A DNA stretch of 64,000 nt, taken from positions 14,341,420 to 14,405,419 of the forward strand of contig NC_061077.1 of assembly GCF_021917145.1 (NCBI RefSeq). The letters are read 5' to 3'. The position numbers and the translations under genes were made by a program. This document shows positions 1 to 64,000 of this stretch, piece after piece (the first letter of the stretch is position 1; every line of letters starts with the position of its first letter). This stretch comes from Hypomesus transpacificus (taxonomy: Eukaryota > Chordata > Actinopteri > Osmeriformes > Osmeridae). Under the pieces are notes generated by a model that worked only from the letters and a program-made list of their open reading frames with translations, was not told the origin of the DNA and ran no database searches.

Positions 1-3000
1 TTAAAGTGCTTTTCAGCTCCTGAATGGCGTTTTCAATGCATTTACAAGGTTTGGCATGTAACTTCTGGCTGAAGGGTTTACTTGATGTTTTAACAGTTAC
101 AACTTGTTTCCGTGGGCGTTTATACATAGTAAAGGTCTTTTCTGAAGATGTTTGGCCATTAGAATTCAGTTTTAGAGACTTTCATTTTTTATTGCTTTAA
201 AGTGCTTTTCAGCTCCTGAATGGCGTTTTCAATGCATTTACAAGGTTTGGCATTTAACTTCTGGCTGAAGGGTTTTCTTGATGTTTTAACAGTTATAACA
301 TGTTTCTGTGGGCGTTTATACATAGTAAAGGTCTTTTCTGAAGATGTTTGGCCATTAGAATTCAGTTTGTGAGACTTTCATTTTTTTATTGCTTTAAAGT
401 GCTTTTCAGCTCCTGAATGGCGTTTTCAATGCATTTACAAGGTTTGGCATGTAACTTCTGGCTGAAGGGTTTTCTTGATGTTTTAACTGTTCTAACATGT
501 TTCTGTGGGCGTTTATACATAGTATAGGTGTTTTCTGAAGATGTTTGGCCATTAGAATTCAGTTTGTGAGACTTTCATTTTTTATTGCTTTAAAGTGCTT
601 TTCAGCTCCTGAATGGCGTTTTCAATGCATTTACAAGGTTTGGCATGTAACTTCTGGATGAAGGGTTTTCTTGATGTTTTAACTGTTCTAACATGTTTCT
701 GTGGGCATTTATATATAGTAAAGGTGTTTTCTGAAGATGTTTGGCCATTAGAATTCAGTTTGTGAGACTTTCATTTTTTTATTGCTTTAAAGTGCTTTTC
801 AGCTCCTGAATGGCATTTTCAATGCATTTACAAGGTTTGGCATTTAACTTCTGGCTGAAGGGATTTCTTGATGTTTTAACTGTTCTAACATGTTTCTGTT
901 GGCGTTAACATATGGCGAAGGTGTCTTTTGAAGATGTTTGGCCATTAGAATTCAGTTTGTGAGACTTTCATTTTTGTATTGCTTTAAAGTGCTTTTCAGC
1001 TCCTGAATGGCATTTTCAATGCATTTACAAGGTTTGGCATTTAACTTCTGGCTGAAGGGATTTCTTGATGTTTTAACTGTTCTAACATGTTTCTGTTGGC
1101 GTTAACATATGGCGAAGGTGTCTTCTGAAGATGTTTGGCCATTAGAATTCAGTTTGTGAGACTTTCATTTTTGTATTGCTTTAAAGTGCTTTTCAGCTCC
1201 TGAATGGCGTTTTCAATGCATTCACAATGTTTGGCATTTAACTTCTGGCTGAAGGGTTTTCTAGATGTTTTAACAGTTACAACATGTTTCTGTGGGCGTT
1301 TATACATAGTAAAGGTGTTTTTTGAAGATGTTTGGCCATTAGAATTCAGTTTGTGAGACTTTCATTTTTATATTGCTTTTAAAGCTTTAAAGTGCTTTTC
1401 AGCTCCTGAATGGGGTTTTCAATGCATTTACAAGGTTGGGCATGTAACTTCTGGCTGAAGGGTTTTCTTGATGTTTTAACTGTTCTAACATGTTTCTGTG
1501 GGTGTTTATACATAGTAAAGTTGTTTTCTGAAGATGTTTGACCATTAGAATTTAGTTTTTGAGACTTTCATTTTTTTTATTGCTTTAAAGTGCTTTTCAG
1601 CTCCTGATTGGCGTTTTCAATGCATTTACAAGGTTTGGCATTTATCTTCTGGCTGAAGGGTTTTCTTGATGTTTTAACTGTTCTAACATGTTTCTGTGGG
1701 CGTTGTTACGTAGGAAAGGTGTTTTCTGAAGATGTTTGGCCATTAGAATTCAGTTTGTGGACTATCATTCTTTAAAGCTTTAAAGTGCTTTTCAGCTCCT
1801 GAATGGGGTTTTCAATGCATTTACAAGGTTGGGCATGTAACTTCTGGCTGAAGGGTTTTCTTGATGTTTTAACTGTTCTAACATGTTTCTGTGGGTGTTT
1901 ATACATAGTAAAGGTGTTTTCTGAAGATGTTTGACCATTAGAATTCAGTTTTTGAGACTTTCATTTTTTTTATTGCTTTAAAGTGCTTTTCAGCTCCTGA
2001 ATGGCGTTTTAAATACATTTACAAGGTTTGGCATGTAACTTCTGGCTGAAGGGTTTTCTTGATGTTTTAACTGTTGTAACATGATTCTTTGGGCGTTTAT
2101 ACATGGTACAGGTGTCTTCTGATGATGTTTGGCCAATAGAATTCAGTTTTTGAGACTTTCTTTTTTTATTGGTTTAAAGGGCTTTTCAGCTCCTGAATGG
2201 CGTTTTCAATGCATTTACAAGGTTTGGCATTTAACTTCTGGCTGAACGGTTTTCTTGATGTTTTAACTGTTCTAACATGTTTCTGTGGGCGTTTCTACAT
2301 GGTAGAGGTGTCTTCTGAAGATGTTTGGCCATTAGAATTCAATTTTTGAGACTTTCATTTTTTTATTGCTTTAAAGTGCTTTTCAGCTCCTGAATGGCAT
2401 TTTCAATGCATTTACAAGGTTTGGCATTTAACTTCTGGCTGAAGGGATTTCTTGATGTTTTAACTGTTCTAACATGTTTCTGTTGGCGTTAACATATGGC
2501 GAAGGTGTCTTCTGAAGATGTTTGGCCATTAGAATTCAGTTTGTGAGACTTTCATTTTTGTATTGCTTTAAAGTGCTTTTCAGCTCCTGAATGGCATTTT
2601 CAATGCATTTACAAGGTTTGGCATTTAACTTCTGGCTGAAGCGATTTCTTGATGTTTTAACTGTTCTAACATGTTTCTGTTGGCGTTAACATATGGCGAA
2701 GGTGTCTTCTGAAGATGTTTGGCCATTAGAATTCAGTTTGTGAGACTTTCATTTTTGTATTGCTTTAAAGTGCTTTTCAGCTCCTGAATGGCGTTTTCAA
2801 TGCATTCACAAGGTTTGGCATTTAACTTCTGGCTGAAGGGTTTTCTAGATGTTTTAACAGTTACAACATGTTTCTGTGGGCGTTTATACATAGTAAAGGT
2901 GTTTTTTGAAGATGTTTGGCCATTAGAATTCAGTTTGTGAGACTTTCATTTTTATATTGCTTTTAAAGCTTTAAAGTGCTTTTCAGCTCCTGAATGGGGT

Positions 3001-5938
3001 TTTCAATGCATTTACAAGGTTGGGCATGTAACTTCTGGCTGAAGGGTTTTCTTGATGTTTTAACTGTTCTAACATGTTTCTGTGGGTGTTTATACATAGT
3101 AAAGTTGTTTTCTGAAGATGTTTGACCATTAGAATTCAGTTTTTGAGACTTTCATTTTTTTTATTGCTTTAAAGTGCTTTTCAGCTCCTGATTGGCGTTT
3201 TCAATGCATTTACAAGGTTTGGCATTTATCTTCTGGCTGAAGGGTTTTCTTGATGTTTTAACTGTTCTAACATGTTTCTGTGGGCGTTGTTACGTAGGAA
3301 AGGTGTTTTCTGAAGATGTTTGGCCATTAGAATTCAGTTTGTGAGACTATCATTCTTTAAAGCTTTAAAGTGCTTTTCAGCTCCTGAATGGGGTTTTCAA
3401 TGCATTTACAAGGTTGGGCATGTAACTTCTGGCTGAAGGGTTTTCTTGATGTTTTAACTGTTCTAACATGTTTCTGTGGGTGTTTATACATAGTAAAGGT
3501 GTTTTCTGAAGATGTTTGACCATTAGAATTCAGTTTTTGAGACTTTCATTTTTTTTATTGCTTTAAAGTGCTTTTCAGCTCCTGAATGGCGTTTTAAATA
3601 CATTTACAAGGTTTGGCATGTAACTTCTGGCTGAAGGGTTTTCTTGATGTTTTAACTGTTGTAACATGATTCTTTGGGCGTTTATACATGGTACAGGTGT
3701 CTTCTGATGATGTTTGGCCAATAGAATTCAGTTTTTGAGACTTTCTTTTTTTATTGGTTTAAAGGGCTTTTCAGCTCCTGAATGGCGTTTTCAATGCATT
3801 TACAAGGTTTGGCATTTAACTTCTGGCTGAACGGTTTTCTTGATGTTTTAACTGTTCTAACATGTTTCTGTGGGCGTTTCTACATGGTAGAGGTGTCTTC
3901 TGAAGATGTTTGGCCATTAGAATTCAATTTTTGAGACTTTCATTTTTTTATTGCTTTAAAGTGCTTTTCAGCTCCTGAATGGCGTTTTCAATGCATTTAC
4001 AAGGTTTGGCATGTAACTTCTGGCTGAAAGGTTTTCTTGATGTTTTAACAGTTCTAACATGTTTCTGTGGGCATTTATATATAGTAAAGGTGTTTTCTGA
4101 AGATGTTTGGCCATTAGAATTCAGTTTGTGAGACTTTCATTTTTTTATTGCTTTAAAGTGCTTTTCAGCTCCTGAATGGCATTTTCAATGCATTTACAAG
4201 GTTTGGCATTTAACTTCTGGCTGAAGGGATTTCTTGATGTTTTAACTGTTCTAACATGTTTCTGTTGGCGTTAACATATGGCGAAGGTGTCTTCTGAAGA
4301 TGTTTGGCCATTAGAATTCAGTTTGTGAGACTTTCATTTTTGTATTGCTTTAAAGTGCTTTTCAGCTCCTGAATGGCATTTTCAATGCATTTACAAGGTT
4401 TGGCATTTAACTTCTGGCTGAAGGGATTTCTTGATGTTTTAACTGTTCTAACATGTTTCTGTTGGCGTTAACATATGGCGAAGGTGTCTTCTGAAGATGT
4501 TTGGCCATTAGAATTCAGTTTGTGAGACTTTCATTTTTGTATTGCTTTAAAGTGCTTTTCAGCTCCTGAATGGCGTTTTCAATGCATTCACAAGGTTTGG
4601 CATTTAACTTCTGGCTGAAGGGTTTTCTAGATGTTTTAACAGTTACAACATGTTTCTGTGGGCGTTTATACATAGTAAAGGTGTTTTTTGAAGATGTTTG
4701 GCCATTAGAATTCAGTTTGTGAGACTTTCATTTTTATATTGCTTTTAAAGCTTTAAAGTGCTTTTCAGCTCCTGAATGGGGTTTTCAATGCATTTACAAG
4801 GTTGGGCATGTAACTTCTGGCTGAAGGGTTTTCTTGATGTTTTAACTGTTCTAACATGTTTCTGTGGGTGTTTATACATAGTAAAGTTGTTTTCTGAAGA
4901 TGTTTGACCATTAGAATTCAGTTTTTGAGACTTTCATTTTTTTTATTGCTTTAAAGTGCTTTTCAGCTCCTGATTGGCGTTTTCAATGCATTTACAAGGT
5001 TTGGCATTTATCTTCTGGCTGAAGGGTTTTCTTGATGTTTTAACTGTTCTAACATGTTTCTGTGGGCGTTGTTACGTAGGAAAGGTGTTTTCTGAAGATG
5101 TTTGGCCATTAGAATTCAGTTTGTGAGACTATCATTCTTTAAAGCTTTAAAGTGCTTTTCAGCTCCTGAATGGGGTTTTCAATGCATTTACAAGGTTGGG
5201 CATGTAACTTCTGGCTGAAGGGTTTTCTTGATGTTTTAACTGTTCTAACATGTTTCTGTGGGTGTTTATACATAGTAAAGGTGTTTTCTGAAGATGTTTG
5301 ACCATTAGAATTCAGTTTTTGAGACTTTCATTTTTTTTATTGCTTTAAAGTGCTTTTCAGCTCCTGAATGGCGTTTTAAATACATTTACAAGGTTTGGCA
5401 TGTAACTTCTGGCTGAAGGGTTTTCTTGATGTTTTAACTGTTGTAACATGATTCTTTGGGCGTTTATACATGGTACAGGTGTCTTCTGATGATGTTTGGC
5501 CAATAGAATTCAGATTTTGAGACTTTCTTTTTTTATTGGTTTAAAGGGCTTTTCAGCTCCTGAATGGCGTTTTCAATGCATTTACAAGGTTTGGCATTTA
5601 ACTTCTGGCTGAACGGTTTTCTTGATGTTTTAACTGTTCTAACATGTTTCTGTGGGCGTTTCTACATGGTAGAGGTGTCTTCTGAAGATGTTTGGCCATT
5701 AGAATTCAATTTTTGAGACTTTCATTTTTTTATTGCTTTAAAGTGCTTTTCAGCTCCTGAATGGCGTTTTCAATGCATTTACAAGGTTTGGCATGTAACT
5801 TCTGGCTGAAAGGTTTTCTTGATGTTTTAACAGTTCTAACATGTTTCTGTGGGCGTTTATACATAGTAAGGGTCGTTTCTGAAGATATTTGGCCATTAGA
5901 ATTCAGTTTGTGAGACTTTCATTTTTTATTGCTTTAAA
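1..5938. repeat. Satellite array, ~198-bp monomer with higher-order units
   Basis: Tandem array entering from outside the window, about 30 head-to-tail monomers of 196-198 bp. Each monomer carries recognisable blocks: gctttaaagtgcttttcagc, ctcctgaatggcgttttcaa, a gaattc site in ttagaattcag, and gagactttcattttt. Diagnostic variants recur at fixed large spacing: the 'gcttttaaagc' junction is at 1375, 2959 and 4741, 'ttaacatatggcg' pairs recur near 905/1102, 2490/2688 and 4270/4468, and 'gttacgtagg' near 1705, 3289 and 5071. The spacings are about 1584 and 1782 bp, that is 8 and 9 monomers, so this is a higher-order repeat. Non-coding; I see no gene in it. A centromeric, pericentromeric or subtelomeric role is possible but not shown. 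Confidence 0.95.
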
Positions 5939-11056: not shown

Positions 11057-12637
11057 GAGTGTGTCACGACGTGTGGAGGGGTAGGACCCAAACGCAGGAG
11101 AGTCAGCAGGCATGGTCCAAAAACAAAAGGGTTTAATGCTCAAAACGGGAAACAGACAGGGTACACGCAGGGACAAAGGGTAAAACCAAAAACAATAGGG
11201 GGGCACGGCTGTGGCCGTGACAGTACCCCCCTCTCAAGGGACGTCACCCGACGACCCACAAGGCAGGGCAGGGGGTCGGGGCAGGTCCGGGGGACGACCC
11301 GGAGGCAGGGCAGAGGGTCGAGGCAGGTCCGGGGGGCGGCCCGGAGGCAGGGCAGAGGTACGGGGCAGGTCCGGGGGGCGGCCCGGAGGCAGGGCAGAGG
11401 GTCGGGGCAGGTCCGGGGGGCGACCCGGACGCCGGAGCACGGGCACGGGGGCGCCTGGGAGCGCGGACGAGGAGGCGCCTGGGAGCGCGGACGAGGGGGC
11501 GCCTGGGAGCGCGGACGAGGGGGCGCCTGGGAGCGCGGACGAGGGGGCGCCTGGGAGCGTGGACGAGGGGGCGCATGGGAGCGCGGGCACCGGGGCGCAT
11601 GGGAGCGCGGGCACCGGGGCGCATGGGAGCGCGGGCACCGGGGCGCATGGGAGCGCGGGCACCGGGGCGCATGGGAGCGCTGGCACCGGGGCGCATGGGA
11701 GCGCGGGCACCGGGGCGCATGGGAGCGCGGGCACCGCGGCAGGCAGCAGCCAGAAGTCCTCGGGCGGAGGAGGCCAGAAGTCCTCGGGCGGAGGAGGCGG
11801 CGACCAGGAGTCCTCGGGCGGAGGAGGCGGCGGCCAGGAGTCCTCGGGCGGAGGAGGAGGCGGCCAGGAGTCCTCGGGCGGAGGAGGAGGCGGCCAGGAG
11901 TCCTCGGATGGCCTGGCACTGGGCGGCACAACCTCGGGGCGAGGCAGGGGCTCAGGGCAGGAACGAGGCTGGGGCACAGGGCAGGAACGAGGCTGGGGCA
12001 CAGGGCAGGAACGAGGCTGGGGCACCGGGCAGGAACGAGGCTGGGGCACCGGGCAGGAACGAGGCTGGGGCACCGGGCAGGAACGAGGCTGGGGTACAGG
12101 GCAGGAACAAGGCTGGGGCACAGGGCAGGAACGAGGCTGGGCTACAGGACAGGAACGAGGCTGGGGCACAGGGCAGGAACGAGGCAGGGGTACAGGGCAG
12201 GAACGGGGCTGGGTTCTGGCGGCAGGCGGCCGAAACTCCCTGGCATGAACAGCCTTGGTGGTCTGGGTGCTGGGCGGCGCAACCTTCTTCGTCCGGGCGC
12301 AGGGCGGCACAACCTCAGGATGAGGCAGGGGCACAGGGCAGGATCGAGGCAGGGGCCCAGGGCAGGACCAAGGCTGGGGTCGGGGTTCGGGCTGGGGCTG
12401 GAGCCAAGGCAGTAACCAGGGCCTAGGGTGGGCCCTCCGCTGTAGGCTTCGTGGACCACCCAAGGCAAGCCTGGTCCCAAGGAAAGGGTTTGGGTCCTAC
12501 CCCTCCACACGTCGTGACAGAATGCTAAGACCACATAAGGACCCAGCGGAGAGTCACCTAAACCCTTTTGTTTTTGGACCATGCCTGCTGACTCTCCTGC
12601 GTTTGGGTCCTACCCCTCCACACGTCGTGACAGAGTG
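11057..12637. mobile_element. TIR-flanked element with internal minisatellites, inside ERV env
   Basis: The element spans 11062-12632. Its ends are 74-bp inverted repeats (11062-11135 and 12559-12632), identical by eye, beginning TGTCACGACGTGTGG. The 5-bp direct duplication gagtg flanks it at 11057-11061 and 12633-12637. The interior is very GC-rich and built of short tandem repeats: about 42 bp (11260-11430), 24 bp (11450-11740), 27-30 bp (11755-11910) and 24 bp (11945-12210). Both strands are open for hundreds of codons, for example 409 codons on minus at 11234-12463 with Pro/Arg/Cys-rich repeats. I read this as a consequence of repeat composition and not as proof of a gene. Near the left end the minus strand shows GGGGGTAC followed by TGTCACGG, and the 161-bp stretch 11062-11222 has TG...CA ends, so an LTR-derived origin is an alternative. 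Superfamily not assigned. Confidence 0.75.
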
Positions 12638-21545: not shown

Positions 21546-21658
21546 AAAGGCCGTTATATGCTACTCCGTACTATACGATTACGGACACATGGGAAGGGCC
21601 TAAGCATAGTTGGAACGCCCTAAAAACGCCCTCTCCGTCGTCTGAGGGGCCGTCGGAG
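21546..21658. mobile_element. Left part of MITE-like element split by the 9.8-kb transposon
   Basis: Starts with aaggccgttatatgctactccg, the same terminus seen at 55764 and, inverted, at the right end near 32735-32762. It also contains acggacacatggga and cgccctc blocks shared with 49780-49810 and 56480-56510. It breaks at tcggag (21653-21658), the target duplication of the inserted element. Confidence 0.6.
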
Positions 21659-22376
21659 TATGGAGTTAGATTAGTTTCATAATTCAAACAAACAAACGCA
21701 ACACGATTCAAACAAACTTAACACGATCCAAACAAACGTAACACGATTCATACAAACATAACACGATTCAAACAAACAAACGTAACACGATTCAAACAAA
21801 CGTAACACGATTTACAAATGTATTTCGTGATTCTTAAATGTAACGCGATTCACAAATAAATGACCCTATTACATTCGTTTGCAACCTGACAAACACAAGT
21901 TACAAATCCCTGCATTCGTTGGTGTGAATCCCTGCATTCGTTCGTGTGAATCCCTGCATTCGTTCGTATGGATTTTTGGAACTTTCCTGACGCGCTTAGA
22001 TTCACAAATGCATTTTTTCTAAAAGATATCCTCTGCAGCCTATCAGATGTCTCCAATTTTAGCCAATCACAAATGGACTACAACGACCTTACCCGCCATA
22101 GTAACGGACTTGACATCACGAACAATGGCGTCTGGTGGTAGCCGCCCACCAAATGTAAGTGAAATATAGCTTGTTAATCTTATTAAACCGATTATCATAC
22201 GTGATTGAATATTCTTGAGAATGGCAGGATCCATGTTTAGTCATTTTAAGTGTTTCCTAGGCTAACGTTTAGCAAGCTAGCTAGTCAATGTCTAACTTAA
22301 CCTGGGCTTGCTAGCTAACATGATGGATACAGTACAGTACTGTACGATTGATGCATTAGTTTGCGGTCAAGCCAGG
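21659..22376 (+). repeat. Left TIR of the 9.84-kb transposon
   Basis: Reverse-complement copy of 30779-31497, with about one mismatch noticed in 700 bases (gtacgattg versus gtactattg near 22343). The outer part holds six or more copies of a cgattcaaacaaacgtaaca unit (21680-21815), then three copies of tccctgcattcgttcgtgtg (21906-21966); these could be transposase-binding sites. The inner part holds CCAAT-type motifs (22051, 22063), a tgacatcacg site (22111) and then exon 1 (22125-22154) with its splice donor. Confidence 0.92.
22040..22160 (+). promoter_or_regulatory. TIR promoter region and shared first exon (left copy)
   Basis: CCAAT motifs (22051, 22063), a CRE-like tgacatcacg (22111) and the ATG at 22125 in aacaATGG context, followed by a donor gtaagt at 22155. 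The same block is present inverted in the right TIR, ending at 31031. No TATA box seen. Promoter activity is inferred from position only. Confidence 0.5.
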
Positions 22377-25300
22377 TAACATCTTACATGGGACTTTAGT
22401 GAACAGATAATTAAAACAATGTTTTCCAAAGCAGGGACTGTCAAATCAAGTGGAGGCTGCAGCACGTGTTCTTGTGCAAGCCCTAGCTAGGAATATTTCC
22501 CCAATGGCAGAGAGCCGAGCAGCAGAGAGCACAGTTGGGGCTGTAACTATGGCCCCTACCATACCTAATGCCACCAATACTGACAGTAGGGTGAGACAGG
22601 CTATGAGAAGGTAATACATACACTGTATGTGGGTAAGGATTAATGCTATACATTATATGGGAGACAGTACCCAACACTGCATCAGTATTCAAGGTTAGCT
22701 AGATGTATTCGATTTGGATAGCACTTAGTTTATCGAACCCCCACATGGCTTTCAGAAATTCCTTACACACGAATTGAGCGCCATCATGTTTTCGAAAAAC
22801 AGTGCCTGAAGAGTCATCATTGTTGTTAAAGGGAAAGTGTTGTTGTAAATGCATTTGCCAACTGCAATTGCCAAGTCATAGCTAATGTATTTTACAATCT
22901 GACTGTGCCTGTCTGTTTCTATCAGGGCATTATGATCCTCAAGCAACTAATTAACATATTGAAATAGTTCAGCAATTATTGCAAATCAATGCTGTTTTCT
23001 TCATTCATCTTTTTGTCACTCCCTCATCAGGCAGTTCCCAAGTATGTTTAATACCGATCAGCCAAGAGGAAAAAGACGGTTCTCAACCCCTTCCACCTGC
23101 ACTGTAAAAAGTACAGCCTTTCATTTTTTTGTCCTTTCTGAACCAACCCTGTATACACCAAAGGGCTCTGAAGAGATAGAATTTGCCCATGCTGGCCTTG
23201 GTAAAAGGATGCTCAGTCTAGCAGACCACTTGAAGCACAGTGAGGTAAACAAATAATACAATAATGTTAAATAGTCAATCATTCTAATTGTTAAAAATGG
23301 GACTTACTGAATAGTGTTTGCCATTTGTATTCACTTATTATTATTTTAGATTGTGTCTCTTGTAGAGGATGAATACTCTAAACTGAAGACCCTAAAAGGA
23401 GGATGGATGTTTTCCAAGGGAACAGGTAGCATTTCTATCACTGTTGTTGCTAGATCACCTCGTACAACCATCCTGATCTCGCAAGCTCACATTCTGTTTC
23501 ACTCAACAGGTCAGTCTGAAAGTATTAGACTGTCTCCAGAACCCATCATCTGTGTAATTGTTTGGATTTGTGTAGTGTGATCCAGTAGACTGCATAATAA
23601 CTTTTCTCAACGCCCATTGTCAATGCCACTACCAAACAAAACGTGTGCAAGTCCAGCCTGGTCTGTGACGTGAAACAGAATGTGACCTCACGAGAACAGG
23701 TGGTACAAATGGTTGTACAAGGCTACTTAGTAGCTCCAATAATGAAAATCTTTTTGTTCATGTTTTTTTTTTTTTTTACCAGGTGGTAGTGGGCGTCGCA
23801 AGCTCACAATTATTCCAATAGACTCTGAAGGCTACTCCACACGTGTGTTAAAAGCAGCTTCAAACAATGGAAAGAACACAATCTATGTGGTTCCAATACA
23901 AGAGCACCTATCTACAGAGCCATTGCCTTATGACTCACCTGAGTTTTCAAAGATGCCACAGTCAACCTGCATCACCTGTGGTAGTGAAATGCCCTTGCAG
24001 CTCTTGCCGTTGCATGTGGGACAATGCAGTGGCACAATAACTGTACGTTTGTACGGCAACACTTCTGTTATTACTCAATTAAACATGCATATTTTTTGTT
24101 TGTTTGAAAATCTACAAATCTTTTGTTTTTTAAGGGCAATACACTTGGGGCTAGTCTTGATGAAGATTGCCATGTCATTGATCAGCCAGTTGAACCTACC
24201 ACAGGGACCAGAGAAGGGATGGGAGTATCTTTTGAGGTAATGCCTTCCACATAAGCACTTTGGTTTCTTCTTATTACAATTTATTAAAATATTCCATTGA
24301 ATGTTGTTTTTTCCAGGTTTGCCCAATTTGTCTTACACCATACCCATTTGATATCCTGTTATCTCATGCAAGCACGTGTGGTGATAGGTAAGATATTTAT
24401 GACTAATAGATTCAGATAAAAAATTGCATGATTAAAAGTCACGTCGAACTTGACTTTAAATCCAAGCTTTAAATGCTCGTTTTTTTATATCTTACAATGT
24501 TACTGCTCTAGACTGCATCGGTGCATGCACGTGCTGCGTCTTTGTAATAAAGTAGTATTCATAATGGATATAAATATGAAGGTGATTTTGAAGGACTTTG
24601 TTAGATGAAAATGATATGCAGGACGTAATACGTTAAGATGCGTTTCAGTCATGATTTGTCTTTTCATTCTTGCAAGTAACAAGTTTTTATGTCTGTCTTA
24701 AGAATGGGCATCACTCACAGCGAATCAGCCAGCCCTACAAGGAGAGAAGAATTGCCAGGACCCTCAGTTCAACGACTGTCTATACAACTGTCAGCAGGTG
24801 ATTTATACCCTTATGATATAATCTGAGTATAATGCAATTTGGAAGTTTTTTTAAAACAACTGATTTTACACTGTATTTTATTGCCAGCACATATGAACGA
24901 ACAAGATCCTTGGAAAGCATGTCAGCTGTTCCGAGAAGAACTACTGGACAGAAACTCCGAACATCGACGTCTCTCTCTCACTCTCGACATGTTTGATGAA
25001 CCAGAAGAACAGGACAGTTCGCTGATTTCGTTCTATAAAATGAACAATGTTAACTGGGCTGCTCCATTCAAGTGCCATCTGAGAGGTATTACTAAAATGT
25101 GTGATATTTATTTTATTAATCATGTAAATTGCATTCTGTTTCTTAATAACTGTGTATTGTATCTCGTAGTTACTTGTTTTTCATCTGAAGTCATAATTTA
25201 TTTTCAAGGAGATGCAGCTGTTGGCGAAGGGGTGAACCGACATGTTTTGTCATTGGTCATGCAAAAACTGAAAACTGGTTTCAGTATAAATCTAGGTTTG

Positions 25301-27775
25301 TGAAGAGACCACAAGAGAAAATGCTTTAATTTAACATTCTTTTAGAATGTAATACAAACATTTGGGGATAACACATATTTTTGCTCTTAAGGCTCTGCTG
25401 GTCTCACAACCCTTTTTGAAGGCGAAAAAGAACATCGGGTTCCCTCCGCAGCTGCTGTGCTTAGGGCAAGTAACCTGTTTGAGATGGCAGGCCGGATGAT
25501 TGGCCACTCTGTCCTGCATGGTGGTCCTGGTTTCTCAGGACTCAGTTTTCCTGTGGTTAAACTTTTGACTGGTAGACACAGGGACACTGCAGCATCCGCT
25601 CTGACCCTGCAGGACTGTCCTGATCTAGATCACCGCGAAACAATTGCTCTTGTGAGTAGCAGCATTTCTAAATTCTTAAATGTCCCAATGTCATATGCTT
25701 ATCACAATGCGACATGTTTTTCTCACATGAGCTTTTAAATCACGCATCATCAATTATTATATTCTTTTCTTTTTTTATGCATGTGTTTTAGCTCACAAAA
25801 GCAAAAATGACTGCAGCAGAAACCACCAGTGTGACTGATCTTTGCCTGTCCTGGGATCTCCCGGTTCCTTCACCTACCAATCATGACTGGCTGTTTCAAG
25901 AACTGCTCACACAAGCAGTAATCATTTTATTATTTAGATTACTGGATAAGTAAAATGGAAATATGACCATCTAACCCATTCTGATTTGTATCGGAGGTTG
26001 ACAGTGTAACACATGCCACATTTGTACCTGTGCCTTGTGTTCTGTCATTCATCACTGCAGGTACTTGATCGTGTTGCGCAACCCATTAAACAGATCCGGA
26101 AAGGCCTGAAAGACACAGGAATCTGGCCGCTTCTGTCAGATAGACCAGATGTTCACCCCATCATTTTCCCACGGGAGGCAGATGAGGAGCTTGATGCGCA
26201 AGTAAGCATTGCTTTGGTTAGTTTAGAAAGGATTTGTGTTTATATGACACAATGCAATCTGTCTGCAATTGAATTGTATGATTGTTCTGCAGCATAGCTC
26301 ATGGTAATTTCAGTTACATTTAGTCATTTAGCAGATGCTCTTATCCAGAGCACTTACAGTAAGTACAGGGACATTTCCCCGAGGCAAGTAGGGTGAAGTG
26401 CCTTGCCCAAGGACACAACGTTATTTGGCACGGCCGGGAATTGAACTGGCAACCTTCTGATTACTATCCTGATTCCTTAACTGCTCAGCCACCTGACTGC
26501 CATTTAAAAGCACAAATAGTGCTACATTATAGTGTAGCATTTTCATGTCATTGTTAGAAAGGTAAACTTTGTTGTTGAAGTCATAAGCAAGTTAAGACAG
26601 ATCCGGAGCATTAAAGGTAGAATATAATAGTCAAACATCAGTATTACAGGGCTGTTCTTAACGCTGTAGAATGCCCCATTCACTTGAATGGGGCTTCCCA
26701 ACGTTCTGCGGTCTGATATCTTCTGATAACAGACCGTTGCTATGAATAACAGACCGCTGTCAAGGAAAGTGGCCTTTTTGCTTCTGATTCACGTCTTTCG
26801 TAGCACTCCGCAAGTAGTCCGGTAACTTTTCAACCCCAGCGTACTCCGTTGATTAGCGACGTCAGCTGATTTGAAGCCTAAAGAATGTTTAATTTCTATG
26901 AAGTTCAATGTCTTTGGCGAACTATTTCTCTGCTGATCAACACAACGAATGGGAACAAATACATTGTAAAAAGTAGTATTTTCTTTAGCAAGTAGCCGTG
27001 TAATAAGTCCTTCCGCTTCGCGTCGGGATGCTGTTCGCCCTGTCGGAGCTTATTTTCCCGATAATGACCGGCGTTCTATACATTATCCCTTATAATAAAG
27101 GTTGGTTGTTAGAAAGTCATGCTGATTAACTGCAACTGCCATGAATCATTTTACTAATAACATAAAACATGTTTTAACCCTGTAGACTGTGATCAAGAAC
27201 ATTTGCTGGCCAAAACCGACATCTGACAGCGACCAGGATGAGGATGAGGAAGACTGTGTCCCATTTGAGACAGTTACTCTTATAACTGAGTTTTTACGAA
27301 AATTCATTGTGGAAGGTAATATTAATTTCCTATATTGGATTTTGAAGCAGTTGCTCCCTGCTAATAAAGGGATAAAGTAGCAGATATCGTGCAGCCAGAG
27401 ATAACATTGTACAGATAATAATATTATACAGAATTTAGAGTAACATTTTAAATCAATGCAAAATATGTGACATTTTGGTTAATTTGCTATGCTCAAAATG
27501 TTCGTTTTGATTAAATGTATTGGAGATGTCACATACATTCAATATTCTCCTTCATAGCATCACCAGAGGTGTTACGTGACCTTGTGAAGTTCTGGGTCGG
27601 GTGGGAACAGCTGACTACCAACCTCATCGTGGAGGTTGTGACCTCTACCTATCCAGTAGCACACACCTGTTTCTCCAAATTGAAGCTTCCCAGCCACTAC
27701 CGGACCTACATCAAGTTCCACGATGACTTATCGATGTGTATCCGATGCACCAATAGTGGTTTTGGGCTAGTGTAG
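22125..27775 (+). CDS. HECT-type E3 ubiquitin ligase-like protein encoded by the transposon
   Basis: Fifteen exons, all with GT-AG borders and continuous frame: 22125-22154, 22435-22610, 23031-23244, 23350-23425, 23783-24042, 24135-24236, 24317-24387, 24703-24797, 24888-25085, 25209-25295, 25392-25651, 25792-25917, 26061-26201, 27186-27315, 27558-27775. Together they make 2,184 nt, 727 aa and a stop. Two zinc knuckles share the spacing C-x2-C-x11-H-x3-C (C228/C231/H243/C247 and C288/C291/H303/C307), like UBZ-type ubiquitin-binding fingers. The C-terminal half is a HECT-like domain: a GDAAVGEGVNRH block, an FEGE...HSVLHGGP region, then the catalytic HTCFSKLKLP motif with Cys at about 693, ending GFGLV. 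It resembles the fish proteins named 'G2/M phase-specific E3 ubiquitin-protein ligase-like'. Predicted role: ubiquitin transfer; the effect on transposition is unknown. Exon 1 lies in the TIR. Intron 13 contains a SINE (26314-26502) and other repeats. A polyA signal aataaa follows at about 27960. Confidence 0.88.
26314..26502 (-). mobile_element. tRNA-derived SINE in intron 13 of the HECT gene
   Basis: On the minus strand it starts at about ggcagtcaggtggctgagca, has a B-box-like gttgccagttcaattccc, and ends with the widespread fish tail agcatctgctaaatgactaa. Another copy, same orientation, is at 56068-56246. A short tail-only fragment lies at about 28081-28112. Confidence 0.75.
26503..27185. 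other. Intronic repeat-like sequence in the HECT gene
   Basis: No exon is visible. About 26650-27090 looks like a foreign insertion: it has a local inverted pair around gccccattcacttgaatgggg (26672-26692) and ends in cattatcccttat, an end also seen in the palindromic element near 41455. Borders and class are unresolved. Confidence 0.35.
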
Positions 27776-28133
27776 GTTTTCACATCTTTTATGGACATCT
27801 TTTATGGATGCCAAAATAAGGTCAGCATGAGTGAAATAAGTATGTTAAGAATGTTAGATGTTTACACAAAACTAATAATGCAGAAGTTATATCCTTATCG
27901 TTCACTGAGTAGCATAACTTCAGTCTTTCACATTGTGTTGTCAAATAATTGTCTTATGCTAATAAAGAAAGAGTTCCCGGTGACAAAACATCCTGTTTTC
28001 TGATCGTCAAGCAGGTGTTTAATAGTTATCTATGTACAGCCACCTATGCAGTTTCATTAAGATATGTTTATGATTATTATTTACATTTCAGTCATTTATC
28101 AGACACTCTTATAATTATTATTTCATTTTATAT

Positions 28134-31031
28134 TTATCTTGCCTCAAGTAAATTCTCAACAAACTGGACTGTGTTGACATAAATGTCCACTCCAAAACTT
28201 TCAGAGTATTGTAATGGTTCAATGGCGTCTTGAAGTTGCACCATTTCTTCATCTGAGAGTGGGCTGTCCAGCACAGGGACATTGACACCAGGGTGTGGCT
28301 CACTGATGTAGACGCTCTCCTCCCATTCGACTTCTGGTACAAGTATAGCCTGACAAAGATGGATATTAGATATAAGCACAACAAATGTTACGTAAACCAG
28401 CTGAAACCATTACCACTACCATGTATAAAACTGATCAATGAATGGTTATGGTTTAAAGTTCTGGCTTTTAGGGTGTCTGTTTTTAATTTATAAATGACTA
28501 ACAAGACATTATGGTAATTAGATGTTTTAACAAATCACCATTTACCTCAGGAAGAGGATCTGCAACGGGATTCAAGGCCTGGCCCACCTGCCACAACTGA
28601 TTTGGTGTCAGGTTTTGCTCTGTCCTAATGGGATGGTTATCCCAGGCCTCATGGAAGACATTCAGGCTGGCCTGGATACGTGGCAGGAAAACGTAGTGGC
28701 AGCAGAACATGTGCAGGATGTTGCTGATATCGAGCAAGTATTGATCCTCTAGAGTGTGCAGGGCGTTGTAATATACACCTGTAACACTCATGAACACATC
28801 ACGCCAGAGGCGCTCAATTCTGTATTGGAAAAAAGCATTTACATTACAATTACTTAATATCCATGTGTCTTGCAATGGATCATTGAGGTCAGTTAACAGA
28901 AATCTTTTTTGTCAATATAATTCTTCATAAAATTAGGTTTAACTCACCGTTGGTTATGCACGCTTTTTCCAGCAATGAAGCTGTTGGTTTCAGTTCCACG
29001 AACTCTATACATCAGTTCAGCAACTCCCACGTTTTCTCCTCCATGATCTCCTCTCACTCTGAAAATATAACATGTAAATTGCCTCATACAGTTTTGAAAG
29101 TTATGTAGTGCAAATATTACAAACACAAGAATAGCTCCATATTGGCGATGATGTTAAAAAGATATGTTACGTTTAAACTAATATCTGAACATCTAAATTC
29201 TATGATGACCTCTGCAATAATACTAAGGATGACAATTGAAATGTGAATACCTCAGAGGGAAACCATGCTCATTGACAGCTTCAGTGAAAAAGGCCAAGTG
29301 TGTGTCAGAGCGGTTATTGTCTGCTACCTTTAGATACATAACCTCACATACATTCACAAATAGTACAGTAGGTTAGTACTTTGATTGGTCAGTTTTCTAT
29401 CCAACATGAGGAACAGAGATTTCTGTACTACACTGCCCCGAGCAAAACAACATATGCCCAAATGGAAGTTGCATCCGTCTGAAAAGTGTTGATCATTCCA
29501 TTTATTTTGATTAAGACATAGTATAAGATGGTATTCAACAGTAAGCATTCTTACCTTCCTTGAGTAGCCATCTATTCCCCCAAAGATGACAAAGTTGTAC
29601 CTTTATTAAAATAAATTGTATTAGCTTTAACAGTATATGAACAACTGTTAAGTGTCTTTTAAACACAATACACAACATTTTCAACAGCATAGGTCTCATG
29701 ATACAATATCTGCATCTTAGCAGAGAAAAATGGGTTCATGGTTTCTAGAACAATGTTAAATTCATACTGTTCTGGTTACTATGGTCTATCGATGATATGA
29801 CATACAGTGATGTTATACAAAATACAAACTACACAATTTTTTACATGTTAATAAACTGACAAATTGATATACAGATATGAATCAGTTATACCTGATTAGC
29901 TTGTGATTGGTGTCAATGTGCACCAAATACTTTGGATAAGGAACATTGTATGTTCTTCTGACCACACATCCAAGACCAGTCAGCCTGGAGAACACACCAA
30001 CACTATCTACGCGATGCATGGACGCATGCAACCTATCCCATTGTATTTTGTGTCCCTGTGCAAGGAGAGCACCTCGGACAACACGATAACCAGCATCTGG
30101 CATTGTGTTTTTAATTTCTGTGATCAAATTATCCAATTCATTGTCACTGCAACTACTGTATAAGGCCCTTAAAGATAGATTGAGTTCTTTCATCCGCCTG
30201 TGTACTGTTGTTCTAGACACACCCAGAAGCTTGGCAATGATATTTAAAGGCAGAGCCATTTCAACTAGATGTGTGAGTGCATCTTCTGAAATTGTAAATC
30301 TTGGACGGCCACGTCCAGAACTTCTTTCAAATTCCAGAATCACAAATGTCTGCCGACTTTCCATTTGTTGCTGGATAGCAATAATAAGATCTGAGAGTGC
30401 TGAGAGTATGTCCTCGTGTACAACTACTACTTCAGCTAGAGCGCTCAACAAAACATGTTCCTGATGGCAAGCAAACTGTAGACCATCTAGGTCCAGAGGT
30501 TGCCTTTCCAAGATCCGCACAACTCGATCATGTAATCTTCTCAAAATAAAATACTTCAGCGAATCCTAGGGAAAGATAGACAGACAGACAAACAAATAAA
30601 CATGAGTGCACAGACACACATAAGGTGCTTCAGAATTCGACAGAATATTATCCTAAATTCAACTGAATGGGCCATCCCAACATTCAGATGTCTGCTATAC
30701 TGTACAAATTTCTAGCTACCAATGCTTAACTACCAAGCTACTGCCACACAATTTTATTATTTTGACCTGCCACACTCCACCTAGCTTGACCGCAAACTAA
30801 TGCATCAATAGTACAGTACTGTACTGTATCCATCATGTTAGCTAGCAAGCCCAGGTTAAGTTAGACATTGACTAGCTAGCTTGCTAAACGTTAGCCTAGG
30901 AAACACTTAAAATGACTAAACATGGATCCTGCCATTCTCAAGAATATTCAATCACGTATGATAATCGGTTTAATAAGATTAACAAGCTATATTTCACTTA
31001 CATTTGGTGGGCGGCTACCACCAGACGCCAT
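28134..31031 (-). CDS. Integrase-like (DDE) transposase of the transposon
   Basis: Seven exons on the minus strand: 31002-31031, 29892-30565, 29555-29600, 29251-29342, 28948-29058, 28546-28819, 28134-28349. They sum to 1,443 nt, 480 aa plus a stop, in one continuous frame. Order: exon 1 shared with the HECT gene through the TIR; a helical N-terminal region; a helix-turn-helix ([20 protein letters not shown], about residues 135-160); then an rve-type catalytic core. Catalytic acids visible are D228 in HIDTNHK, D285 in [10 protein letters not shown] and E320 in [12 protein letters not shown], giving D-x56-D-x34-E, the spacing of retroviral/IS3 integrases. The C-terminal part is acidic. The exon 4 acceptor (before 29342) has a weak pyrimidine tract but is supported by frame. 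Predicted role: cutting and joining the element's ends, in the nucleus. It converges tail to tail with the HECT gene, about 360 bp apart. Confidence 0.88.
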
Positions 31032-31497
31032 TGTTCGTGATGTCAAGTCCGTTACTATGGCGGGTAAGGTCGTTGTAGTCCATTTGTGATTGGCTAAAAT
31101 TGGAGACATCTGATAGGCTGCAGAGGATATCTTTTAGAAAAAATGCATTTGTGAATCTAAGCGCGTCAGGAAAGTTCCAAAAATCCATACGAACGAATGC
31201 AGGGATTCACACGAACGAATGCAGGGATTCACACCAACGAATGCAGGGATTTGTAACTTGTGTTTGTCAGGTTGCAAACGAATGTAATAGGGTCATTTAT
31301 TTGTGAATCGCGTTACATTTAAGAATCACAAAATACATTTGTAAATCGTGTTACGTTTGTTTGAATCGTGTTACGTTTGTTTGTTTGAATCGTGTTATGT
31401 TTGTATGAATCGTGTTACGTTTGTTTGGATCGTGTTAAGTTTGTTTGAATCGTGTTGCGTTTGTTTGTTTGAATTATGAAACTAATCTAACTCCATA
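30779..31497 (-). repeat. Right TIR of the 9.84-kb transposon
   Basis: Inverted copy of 21659-22376, with the same subterminal repeats (31190-31250 and 31340-31475) and the same promoter region and exon 1 (31002-31031 on the minus strand). It supplies the start of the transposase gene. Confidence 0.92.
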
Positions 31498-31503
31498 TCG
31501 GAG

Positions 31504-33407: not shown

Positions 33408-35474
33408 ATGAACGGGAAACTCATTCCCCACACGCCATTGGCCGTGGACTTCTGGCAAGTGCGCAAGTGTTCGCACGTACGCCTTTTCTTCCTCTCCCAC
33501 ATGCACAGTGACCACACTGCCTGTCTGACGTCCACCTGGAGCAACCGACCCATATACTGCTCTCCAGTTTCAGCCACATTGCTGAAACTTAAACTACAAG
33601 TAAGAACAAGTATCGTCATGATACAGCAGGGCAGACACATTTTCCAAATGTAATGTACCAAAATCATAATCCTTTGGTCTCCTGGCTACTTTGTTATCAA
33701 TGGTATATCCTCTCTCCAGGTGAAAGAGGAATGGATTCACCCTCTGGAGTTGGATGAGCCATACTTACTCCCACTGGATGATATTGGCAAGGAGAAGCTG
33801 ACGGTCACCCTGTTGGATGCCAACCACTGCCCTGGGGCTGTCATGTTTCTCTTCCAAGGCTACTTTGGCACCATCCTCTACACTGGCATGTTTTTTTAAA
33901 TTTGTTTACAGATAATAAATGAATGTGAAACATATTCAAATGAACTTCCATCTTAAAGAAATAAACTTCACAAATTCCAGGTGACTTCAGATACACTCCG
34001 TCCATGCTTCGTGAGCAATGCCTAAGGACCAACACCACTATAGATGTCCTGTACCTGGACAACACCAATTGCGACCCCACGCGCACCTTGCCTTCCAGAC
34101 AACGAGCTACCCAGCAGATCAAGGAGATCATTCGCAGTCATCCCGGTCACAATGTGGTCATCGGTGAGGGCCTCATCTATGTTGACTCTCTTCATAAGCA
34201 CTGCAGAGTTGCAACTAACAAATAAATCATTGTGTTTCGTGTTGCCAGTAGCAGCTACACACAGACAACTGATGATTTCTGTGACTTTTGTGTTCCCTGC
34301 AGGCATGTATACCCTTGGTAAGGAGTGCCTACTGGTGGAACTGGCTTTAGAATTCAAGACCTGGGTGGAGGTGAGCCCAGAGAGACTGGAAACCCTGAAA
34401 GTCCTAGAGCTGCCCGATGTCTTCACCACTGAGCCGGGAGCCGGCCGGATCCGAGCCGTGGACCAGTCGCAGATCCGCTCAGCCAACTTGCTCCTGTGGA
34501 ACCAGGATTACCCAACCCTGGCCATCCTGCCCACCAGCAGGCCCCTGGTCTCCTTCCACCCTGACGTCCACGTGGTGCCCTACTCAGACCACTCCTCCTA
34601 CCAGGAGCTGGAGGACTTTGTGTCGGCATTGCAGCCCACCTCCCTGGTTCCCATCGTGGGCAGCTGCGTCCCATCCTTCTCCGCCCTGCTGCCCCGCAGG
34701 AAGCGTCATGCGGTCTTGATCCCAGAGTCTGTCCAGAACTACATGGCAGCCCAATCCAAGGTCCCGTTAGCTGTGACTGCTTTCCCCAACCAACCCCGCC
34801 GGCACAGCCGAACCACACCCAGGGGGGTGGTGTTCGAGTCCCCCGGCCGGAGCTCAAGATCCCCCTTGATAGACTGCGCCTGGGAGACAGGCTCCCTAGA
34901 GGAGGAGGATGAGGCTGAGGTGGGTGGAGAGAGCTGCACCATTATGGACCCAAGCGATGCCTCCTCCACCAGCGAGAGTGTGGGTGCTGGGGACCTGTGG
35001 AGCCTGAAGGTTGTCCAGAGAGTCTCTGATGAGATGGAGAGTGTGTCGTTTAGCCAGTTCACCCAGAGCAACTTTGTCCCCATGGAGATTCTAAGGAACA
35101 CTGTCACCTCCTTGAAGCCTAAAATAGTGAGTCAGCCACAGTATGTTCCTTGCAACAGTGTCACTGCCTTGAACTATATTAGTGAGTCCGACAACCCTAG
35201 CCCTCCCCGTGGACTTCCAGAAGATCTAGAAAACAGTGAGTCTCTATTGCAGGTCAGCTGTAAGTGGGATGGCTTAGTGAGAGCTTCTCCCTGCAACAGT
35301 AGAACCAAGTCTGAGCTTCTGACTGAGTGTGAACAGGCTCTGGTGCTGCAGCTACCGTTCTCTGAGGAGGATCTGTCTGTGTGCAGTGGTCTCCTTGACA
35401 AAAGCCTGGTACAAAAGTTCAGCCTGAAACCACACCATGTCGTCAAGGAAAGAAATGGCACCTTCTGCTGCTGA
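33408..35474 (+). CDS. dclre1b: 5' exonuclease Apollo (SNM1B)
   Basis: Four coding exons: 33408-33599, 33720-33885, 33981-34163, 34303-35474; 1,713 nt, 570 aa. Metallo-beta-lactamase fold with the HxHxDH metal motif at residues 31-36 (HMHSDH, with D35 the known catalytic position), the [10 protein letters not shown] motif at about 95-104 and GDFRYTPSM at 120-128, then a beta-CASP region with PYSDHSSY. Family role: a nuclear 5'-3' exonuclease acting at interstrand crosslinks and at telomere ends, recruited by TRF2. The C-terminus carries FSLKP (553-557), matching the TRF2-binding consensus [Y/F]-x-L-x-P found at the end of mammalian Apollo. Intron 2 uses a GC donor (g-c-a-t-g-t at 33886), the only frame-preserving choice; the others are GT-AG. 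Human Apollo is 532 aa, so this one is slightly longer. The start is the MNGxLIPHTP methionine conserved in the family. Confidence 0.95.

Positions 35475-52861: not shown

Positions 52862-64000
<11,139 letters not shown>

Follow-up and report, generated by a model that had tools for sequence, protein, structure and literature searches.

A predicted HECT ubiquitin ligase as a likely long-kept second gene of a young IS3EU transposon in Hypomesus transpacificus

The element and its two genes

The 64,000-nt stretch of Hypomesus transpacificus DNA analyzed here (the window, to whose positions coordinates refer unless another contig is named) contains a 9,839-bp DNA transposon at 21659-31497, delimited by its termini and by inverted-repeat comparison, in which a HECT ubiquitin-ligase gene on the forward strand converges on a DDE transposase gene on the reverse strand. 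The element is flanked by a perfect 6-bp target-site duplication (TSD), TCGGAG, at 21653..21658 on the left and 31498..31503 on the right. A single long pair of terminal inverted repeats (TIRs) bounds it, the left arm (21659..22377, plus strand) ending in TATGGAG and the right arm (30779..31497, minus strand) in CTCCATA; each arm is 719 bp long, and the two are equal at 716/719 positions, with 3 mismatches. Both genes lie between the TIRs, and their models, made from the sequence alone by GT-AG splicing, contain 14 introns in the HECT gene and 6 in the transposase gene, 20 in all. An earlier note on this DNA had described the perfect tcggag duplication, the TATGGAG/CTCCATA ends, near-identical TIRs of about 718 bp and two convergent multi-exon genes of 727 and 480 codons with 20 introns; the duplication and ends were confirmed, the TIRs measured 719 bp, and splicing reproduced both genes.

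The HECT gene (22125..27775, plus strand) has 15 exons (22125-22154, 22435-22610, 23031-23244, 23350-23425, 23783-24042, 24135-24236, 24317-24387, 24703-24797, 24888-25085, 25209-25295, 25392-25651, 25792-25917, 26061-26201, 27186-27315 and 27558-27775) encoding 727 amino acids. Its product matches the Pfam HECT profile above cut-off (4.1e-12; 46.8 bits vs 23.9) over profile positions 35-305 of 306, and C693, its predicted catalytic residue, is encoded at 27668..27670 (plus strand) within the AHTCF motif of the HECT C-lobe. By domain and catalytic cysteine the protein is a predicted HECT E3 ligase, expected to transfer ubiquitin. In a search of PDB sequences the best cellular HECT matches (SMURF2, AREL1 and HUWE1) reached only E ~0.01, and this remote similarity indicates that the transposon HECT is no recent copy of the SMURF2/AREL1/HUWE1-type genes matched.

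Two C-x2-C-x11-H-x3-C zinc-finger motifs were recognized in the HECT protein by their spacing, at residues 228-247 (23968..24027) and 288-307 (24320..24379, both on the plus strand), with no Pfam match to either. The spacing is that of the UBZ4 ubiquitin-binding fingers of DNA-repair proteins; despite this fit, the finger segments gave no Pfam UBZ match. A control search for the motif in 33,083 amino acids of opposite-strand frames yielded 0 matches. Among the related loci described below (C labels denote contigs of this genome, and the window copy is locus C18), two such fingers each are present in C18, C14b and C6 and one in C11, whereas the remaining 9 loci scanned have none. Intron 13 of the HECT gene holds a 140-bp repeat (26307-26446) that is 91% identical to window positions 56074-56213, where the second repeat copy overlaps a 3' element of the UnaL2 long interspersed nuclear element at 56085-56138.

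The transposase gene (28134..31031, minus strand) has 7 exons (31031-31002, 30565-29892, 29600-29555, 29342-29251, 29058-28948, 28819-28546 and 28349-28134) encoding 480 amino acids. Residues 216-397 match the rva_4 integrase core in Pfam above cut-off (6.1e-73), accompanied by a weak rve match (0.0083) and by weak matches to a helix-turn-helix-like region at about residues 106-147, all below cut-off. The catalytic residues, assigned by motif, are aspartates D228 (codon 29912..29914) and D285 (29046..29048) and glutamate E320 (28813..28815), which is 34 residues past D285; all three codons are on the minus strand. No HHCC motif was found upstream of the core, where the first catalytic aspartate is at residue 228, and no PDB sequence matched the transposase at E values up to 1.

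The first coding exon, 30 nt in length, is identical in the two genes and lies inside the TIR, the left arm holding HECT exon 1 with its upstream region and the right arm holding the same exon for the transposase gene, so that each end of the element supplies the start region of one gene. The ligase and the transposase are probably switched on together from the TIRs. As the shared segment is too short for a domain in the window family, it is more safely read here as a common start region.

Copies and mobility of the window family

The FISNA domain, a marker of fish, occurs in 43 places of the genome (437 Mb in 376 contigs). A TIR search of this genome identified near-full copies at three other sites, on C23, C22 and C4. 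The four copies differ pairwise by 0.14-0.66% (99.3-99.9% identical), neither frame is broken and every intron-border dinucleotide is kept in 4/4, and the length differences in the HECT coding sequence are 6 and 3 nt, that is, multiples of three. Perfect and distinct duplications flank three of the four copies (TCGGAG in C18, CTAACT in C23 and GATTTT in C22), while the C4 copy has a cut right end, its right TIR being without the outer 175 bp. The C22 copy is inserted inside another repeat, which we take to be Tc1/mariner-like, and a paralogous empty site for this insertion was detected at L030:2906-3305 with one GATTTT, the joined flanks aligning over 400 columns at 99.25% identity with no gap. 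No empty site for the C18 and C23 flanks was found among the genome pieces extracted for analysis. The earlier note had called the element young, which the low divergence between copies bears out; it had also named single-copy occurrence with conserved synteny across species, or a HECT gene never found between the same TIRs in other copies, as findings that would speak against a mobile element, and the genome instead holds four copies at different sites with HECT between the same TIRs in each. The note had further taken the intact frames, matching TIRs and target duplication to suggest a possibly active element, which is plausible.

The same TIR search gave 80 matches in at least 40 clusters, the best 40 of 463 candidates having been scored. 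Of these 40 clusters, 27 are by match layout compact foldback units of 660-1798 bp with window-family ends in both orientations, too short to hold the HECT and transposase genes; the remaining clusters comprise 8 that correspond to ends of the four copies and 5 single ends.

IS3EU transposons have been in Repbase since 2013 and comprised 45 families in 2022, with TA..TA termini and usually 6-bp TSDs (PMC10045372); the ends of TET-carrying fungal members are given as TAYGG..CCRTA (PMC12730594), and a study that surveyed the genomes of four teleosts lists IS3EU copies (PMC4746887). The window element agrees with these descriptions in its termini (TATGGAG..CTCCATA fits both TA..TA and TAYGG..CCRTA) and in its 6-bp TSDs (TCGGAG, CTAACT and GATTTT, together with the empty site). 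It also agrees in the type of its DDE transposase (IS3/IS481/integrase, judged by the rva_4 profile and the D228, D285, E320 motif), and in having no HHCC motif and a first catalytic aspartate, at 228, within 100-300 residues of the N-terminus. By every testable feature of its sequence, the window element is an IS3EU member.

HECT and transposase pairs in diverged families

A profile search of the genome detected at least 69 HECT clusters (PF00632; best 150 of 151 matches, 129/175 candidates scored) and at least 100 rva_4 clusters (PF24764; best 150 of 151 matches, 150/273 candidates scored), both counts being lower bounds. An rva_4 cluster lies within 6 kb of 29 of the 69 listed HECT clusters, and in 29/29 cases the two are convergent. 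A further search, with HECT pieces of other families chained into one query (53 matches), added six more pairs, recognized by eye and all convergent, which brings the total to at least 35 pairs within 6 kb, 35/35 convergent, in deeply diverged families. By contrast, when the surroundings of the eight highest-scoring HECT matches (L001-L008, pieces of 3.2-3.6 kb) were compared by tblastn with the window HECT and transposase, neither was matched. The earlier note had suggested that many fish HECT genes annotated as G2/M-phase E3 ligase-like may be transposon genes and not host genes; in this genome, the 29 of 69 listed HECT clusters that lie beside rva_4 need a check before they are taken for host ligases.

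Seventeen HECT and transposase loci were read as sequence, namely the four window-family copies and 13 others, and perfect 6-bp duplications are present in eight of them: C18, C23 and C22, plus C6 (ATACAT), C11 (ACAAAG), C374 (CTAAAG), C8 (CAAATA) and C7 (CCCATG) from other families. TACGG ends occur in C374, C8 and C7. The ends of C14c, C91, C328, C19, C23b and C23c, and with them their TSDs, were not found by simple end searches; C14a has its ends but no matching duplications, and C14b has no TATGGAG left end. With one locus taken per family, the fish loci are 21-58% identical in the HECT pieces and 28-70% in the transposase. In a C-lobe comparison of C18 with the 13 other loci, among which C14a, C14b and C6 are alike, the catalytic cysteine (TC) is kept in 14/14 and a GF near the end in 12/14; 12 of the 14 loci yielded an N-lobe piece (C11 and C14c did not), with HGG in 12/12. 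Between families, nonsynonymous divergence (dN) is 0.23-0.52 (0.26-0.52 for HECT pieces) and synonymous divergence (dS) is saturated or >1.4; dN well below dS fits constraint, as a rough measure given the short pieces and the saturation. The HECT and transposase distances are correlated across 14 loci, with the near-duplicate C14a left out (Mantel r 0.64, p 0.0001), and the clades {C8,C374,C7}, {C18,C14b,C6}, {C14c,C19,C23b} and {C328,C91} appear in both gene trees. The deep nodes disagree, C23c grouping with C328/C91 in the transposase tree and not in the HECT tree.

A TIR-encoded first exon may also exist outside the window family. A candidate exon, MAGQGSTPDGVPST, is present in both TIRs of the C14b/C6 family, and the TIR of the C374/C7 family encodes, at both ends of the element, a candidate segment, MDSDRVVFCPFCG..MSQLTR.CFSCGRSLE.LN, that is zinc-ribbon-like, its best profile matches (E ~2e-4 to 4e-4) lying below cut-off. 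The simple donor scan found no such exon in C11 and C8. In some families the ligase and the transposase thus probably carry the same N-terminal segment.

Beyond fish, the transposase alignment, used to scan contigs of prokaryotic genomes, detected four loci (L041-L044), all filed under metagenome-assembled genomes (MAGs) assigned to symbionts of sponges (Iophon or Poecilosclerida); a scan of viral contigs gave 20 pattern matches, none of them confirmed as a relative. The 8,233-bp contig L041, filed as a Methylococcales symbiont of Iophon, carries a transposase on the plus strand (rva_4 1.4e-75) and, convergent to it, a 371-aa HECT frame on the minus strand (PF00632 1.5e-6, with an AHTC motif), the end of which is about 190 bp from the end of the transposase. 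In L041 the first catalytic aspartate has its codon split by a GT..AG stretch at 3770-4037, and the joined reading is SLWHIDGHHKLIRWRF; this putative intron points to eukaryotic DNA, so that L041 is probably sponge DNA binned with the symbiont. Predicted structures of the L041 HECT frame and the L042 transposase were poor (mean predicted local distance difference test scores of 36.5 and 51.7, respectively) and were not used. On L043, retroelement-like pol frames at 2489-4212, recognized by eye, adjoin the transposase.

At some loci only one of the two genes was found within 6 kb. Four rva_4 loci (C22:4922906, C6:790698, C25:2501163 and C26:2036084) have like scores and a 293-aa frame, with no HECT found within 6 kb; possibly they are HECT-less or belong to a different IS3EU family. 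Transposon-type HECT exons with no rva_4 match within 6 kb occur at C21:7379360-7381612, C51:174195-175768 and C114:105850-106777 and are candidates for decayed elements or domesticated copies.

Elsewhere in the window, a plus-strand frame at 34044-35474, about 2.5 kb beyond the transposon end, has a DNA-repair metallo-beta-lactamase (DRMBL) domain (3.5e-9) and resembles the Apollo/DCLRE1B gene. A mir-724 microRNA precursor lies at 60631-60690 on the minus strand (92.9 bits), and low-complexity repeats at 11057-12496, open in several frames on both strands, are probably a minisatellite.

Origin and role of the ligase gene

We consider it likely that the window element is a young, structurally complete cut-and-paste IS3EU transposon that has long kept a HECT E3 ligase gene as its second gene. 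Carriage of the ligase seems to be a durable trait of the transposon and no accident, because the two-gene design recurs in distant relatives in this genome and once in sponge-associated DNA. Several observations weigh against this. No HECT was found within 6 kb of 65 of the 100 listed rva_4 clusters, most of which are only short matches, and the HECT gene may for this reason be dispensable or partly lost; the earlier note's description of such a gene as unusual nevertheless calls for revision, since the 35 convergent pairs make HECT common in this lineage of the genome. Between 6 and 12 kb, two pairs are convergent (C47 and C12, at 7.4 and 7.6 kb) and one, C328 at 11.7 kb, is not, and 9 of the 17 loci read are without a demonstrated TSD. 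Within the young family, HECT dN/dS is 0.25-0.46 in four pairs, 2.46 in one and undefined in one, with too few changes to be informative; close pairs of other loci range from 0.24 to 0.84, also with few changes, and one close C-lobe pair has 5 nonsynonymous and 0 synonymous changes. The Mantel correlation with one locus per family is weak (r 0.23, p 0.085, n 10), so that genes may have been exchanged between families. Finally, the sponge-associated pair comes from one contig of a bacterial-symbiont MAG, and HECT was not found on L042, L043 and L044, contigs of only 3.4-4.2 kb.

The rva_4 clusters without HECT would fit a single capture of a host HECT gene that has since travelled as a passenger with no function, as happens in transposons that capture genes. 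Such a passenger should have decayed over the divergence seen here, yet the convergent pair spans families at the identities given above, the catalytic cysteine is kept in 14/14 C-lobes, the frames are open in 4/4 window-family copies, and cellular HECTs in the PDB match no better than E ~0.01; we regard this explanation as quite improbable. That separate IS3EU lineages each acquired a HECT gene on their own, always in one slot, fits the conflict over C23c at the deep nodes and the weak one-per-family correlation, and parallel capture has been raised in print, and not ruled out, for the fungal TET/JBP genes (PMC12730594). It is nevertheless unlikely, since all 35 pairs within 6 kb share order and orientation, HGG and TC are kept in every N-lobe (12/12) and C-lobe (14/14) found, and four clades are common to both trees. 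That two unrelated neighboring host genes in a repeat, or assembly duplicates, were misread as an element is scarcely credible, and it was rejected: flanks and duplications differ at three copies, an empty site exists, and the same pair occurs in other TSD-flanked elements.

On the reading preferred here, the transposase would bind the TIRs, cut and join, with DDE cleavage and strand transfer as expected from knowledge of the family; the 6-bp duplications indicate a 6-bp staggered insertion. The ligase would take ubiquitin onto C693 and modify a protein to the benefit of the element, the likeliest targets being a host factor for silencing or repair, or else the transposase, in which case ubiquitylation would take the complex apart after strand transfer. 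A more far-reaching version, which we put forward tentatively as one possibility, is that animal IS3EU elements were ancestrally two-enzyme transposons, HECT having accompanied the transposase since before the sponge/vertebrate split. The TIR exon would give both proteins a common N-terminal segment (CPFCG..CFSCG in one clade, a zinc-ribbon-like module) that brings the ligase to the transposition complex, and ubiquitylation would be built into transposition or into defense against the host. Being young and structurally complete, the element lends itself to mutational tests of what the ligase does.

In the openly licensed literature searched, no transposon-encoded HECT ligase appeared among the matches listed and no paper combined IS3EU and HECT; the sole match to HECT, Repbase and transposase together was a sheep virus-infection study. 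The words "HECT" and "ubiquitin" are absent from the main text of PMC10045372 and PMC12730594. As far as these searches of papers go, a HECT ligase as a recurrent second gene of IS3EU is new, although a HECT frame may be catalogued in Repbase or Dfam.

Like cellular HECT E3 ligases such as SMURF2, AREL1 and HUWE1, the transposon protein has a HECT domain, an AHTCF active site and a GFG near the C-terminus; unlike them, it is only remotely similar in sequence, is located in a transposon and, in C18, C14b/C6 and C11, carries UBZ4-spaced fingers. Enzymes of a related kind, the ULP/SUMO proteases, are carried by MULE and Zisupton elements. The window element shares with IS3EU its TA..TA ends, 6-bp TSDs and integrase-like DDE transposase without HHCC upstream of the core, and differs from the TET-carrying fungal members in its second slot, which holds a HECT ligase here and there an alpha-kinase gene that runs against the transposase, the TET/JBP gene lying between the two (PMC12730594). 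As in transposons with TET/JBP or SET methyltransferase passengers, a second enzyme gene is kept in many families, and such enzymes are thought to counter host silencing or to aid the element (PMC12730594). If the ligase works as proposed, protein ubiquitylation would be among the functions that animal transposons encode, a counterpart to the alpha-kinase and TET genes found in fungal IS3EU elements.

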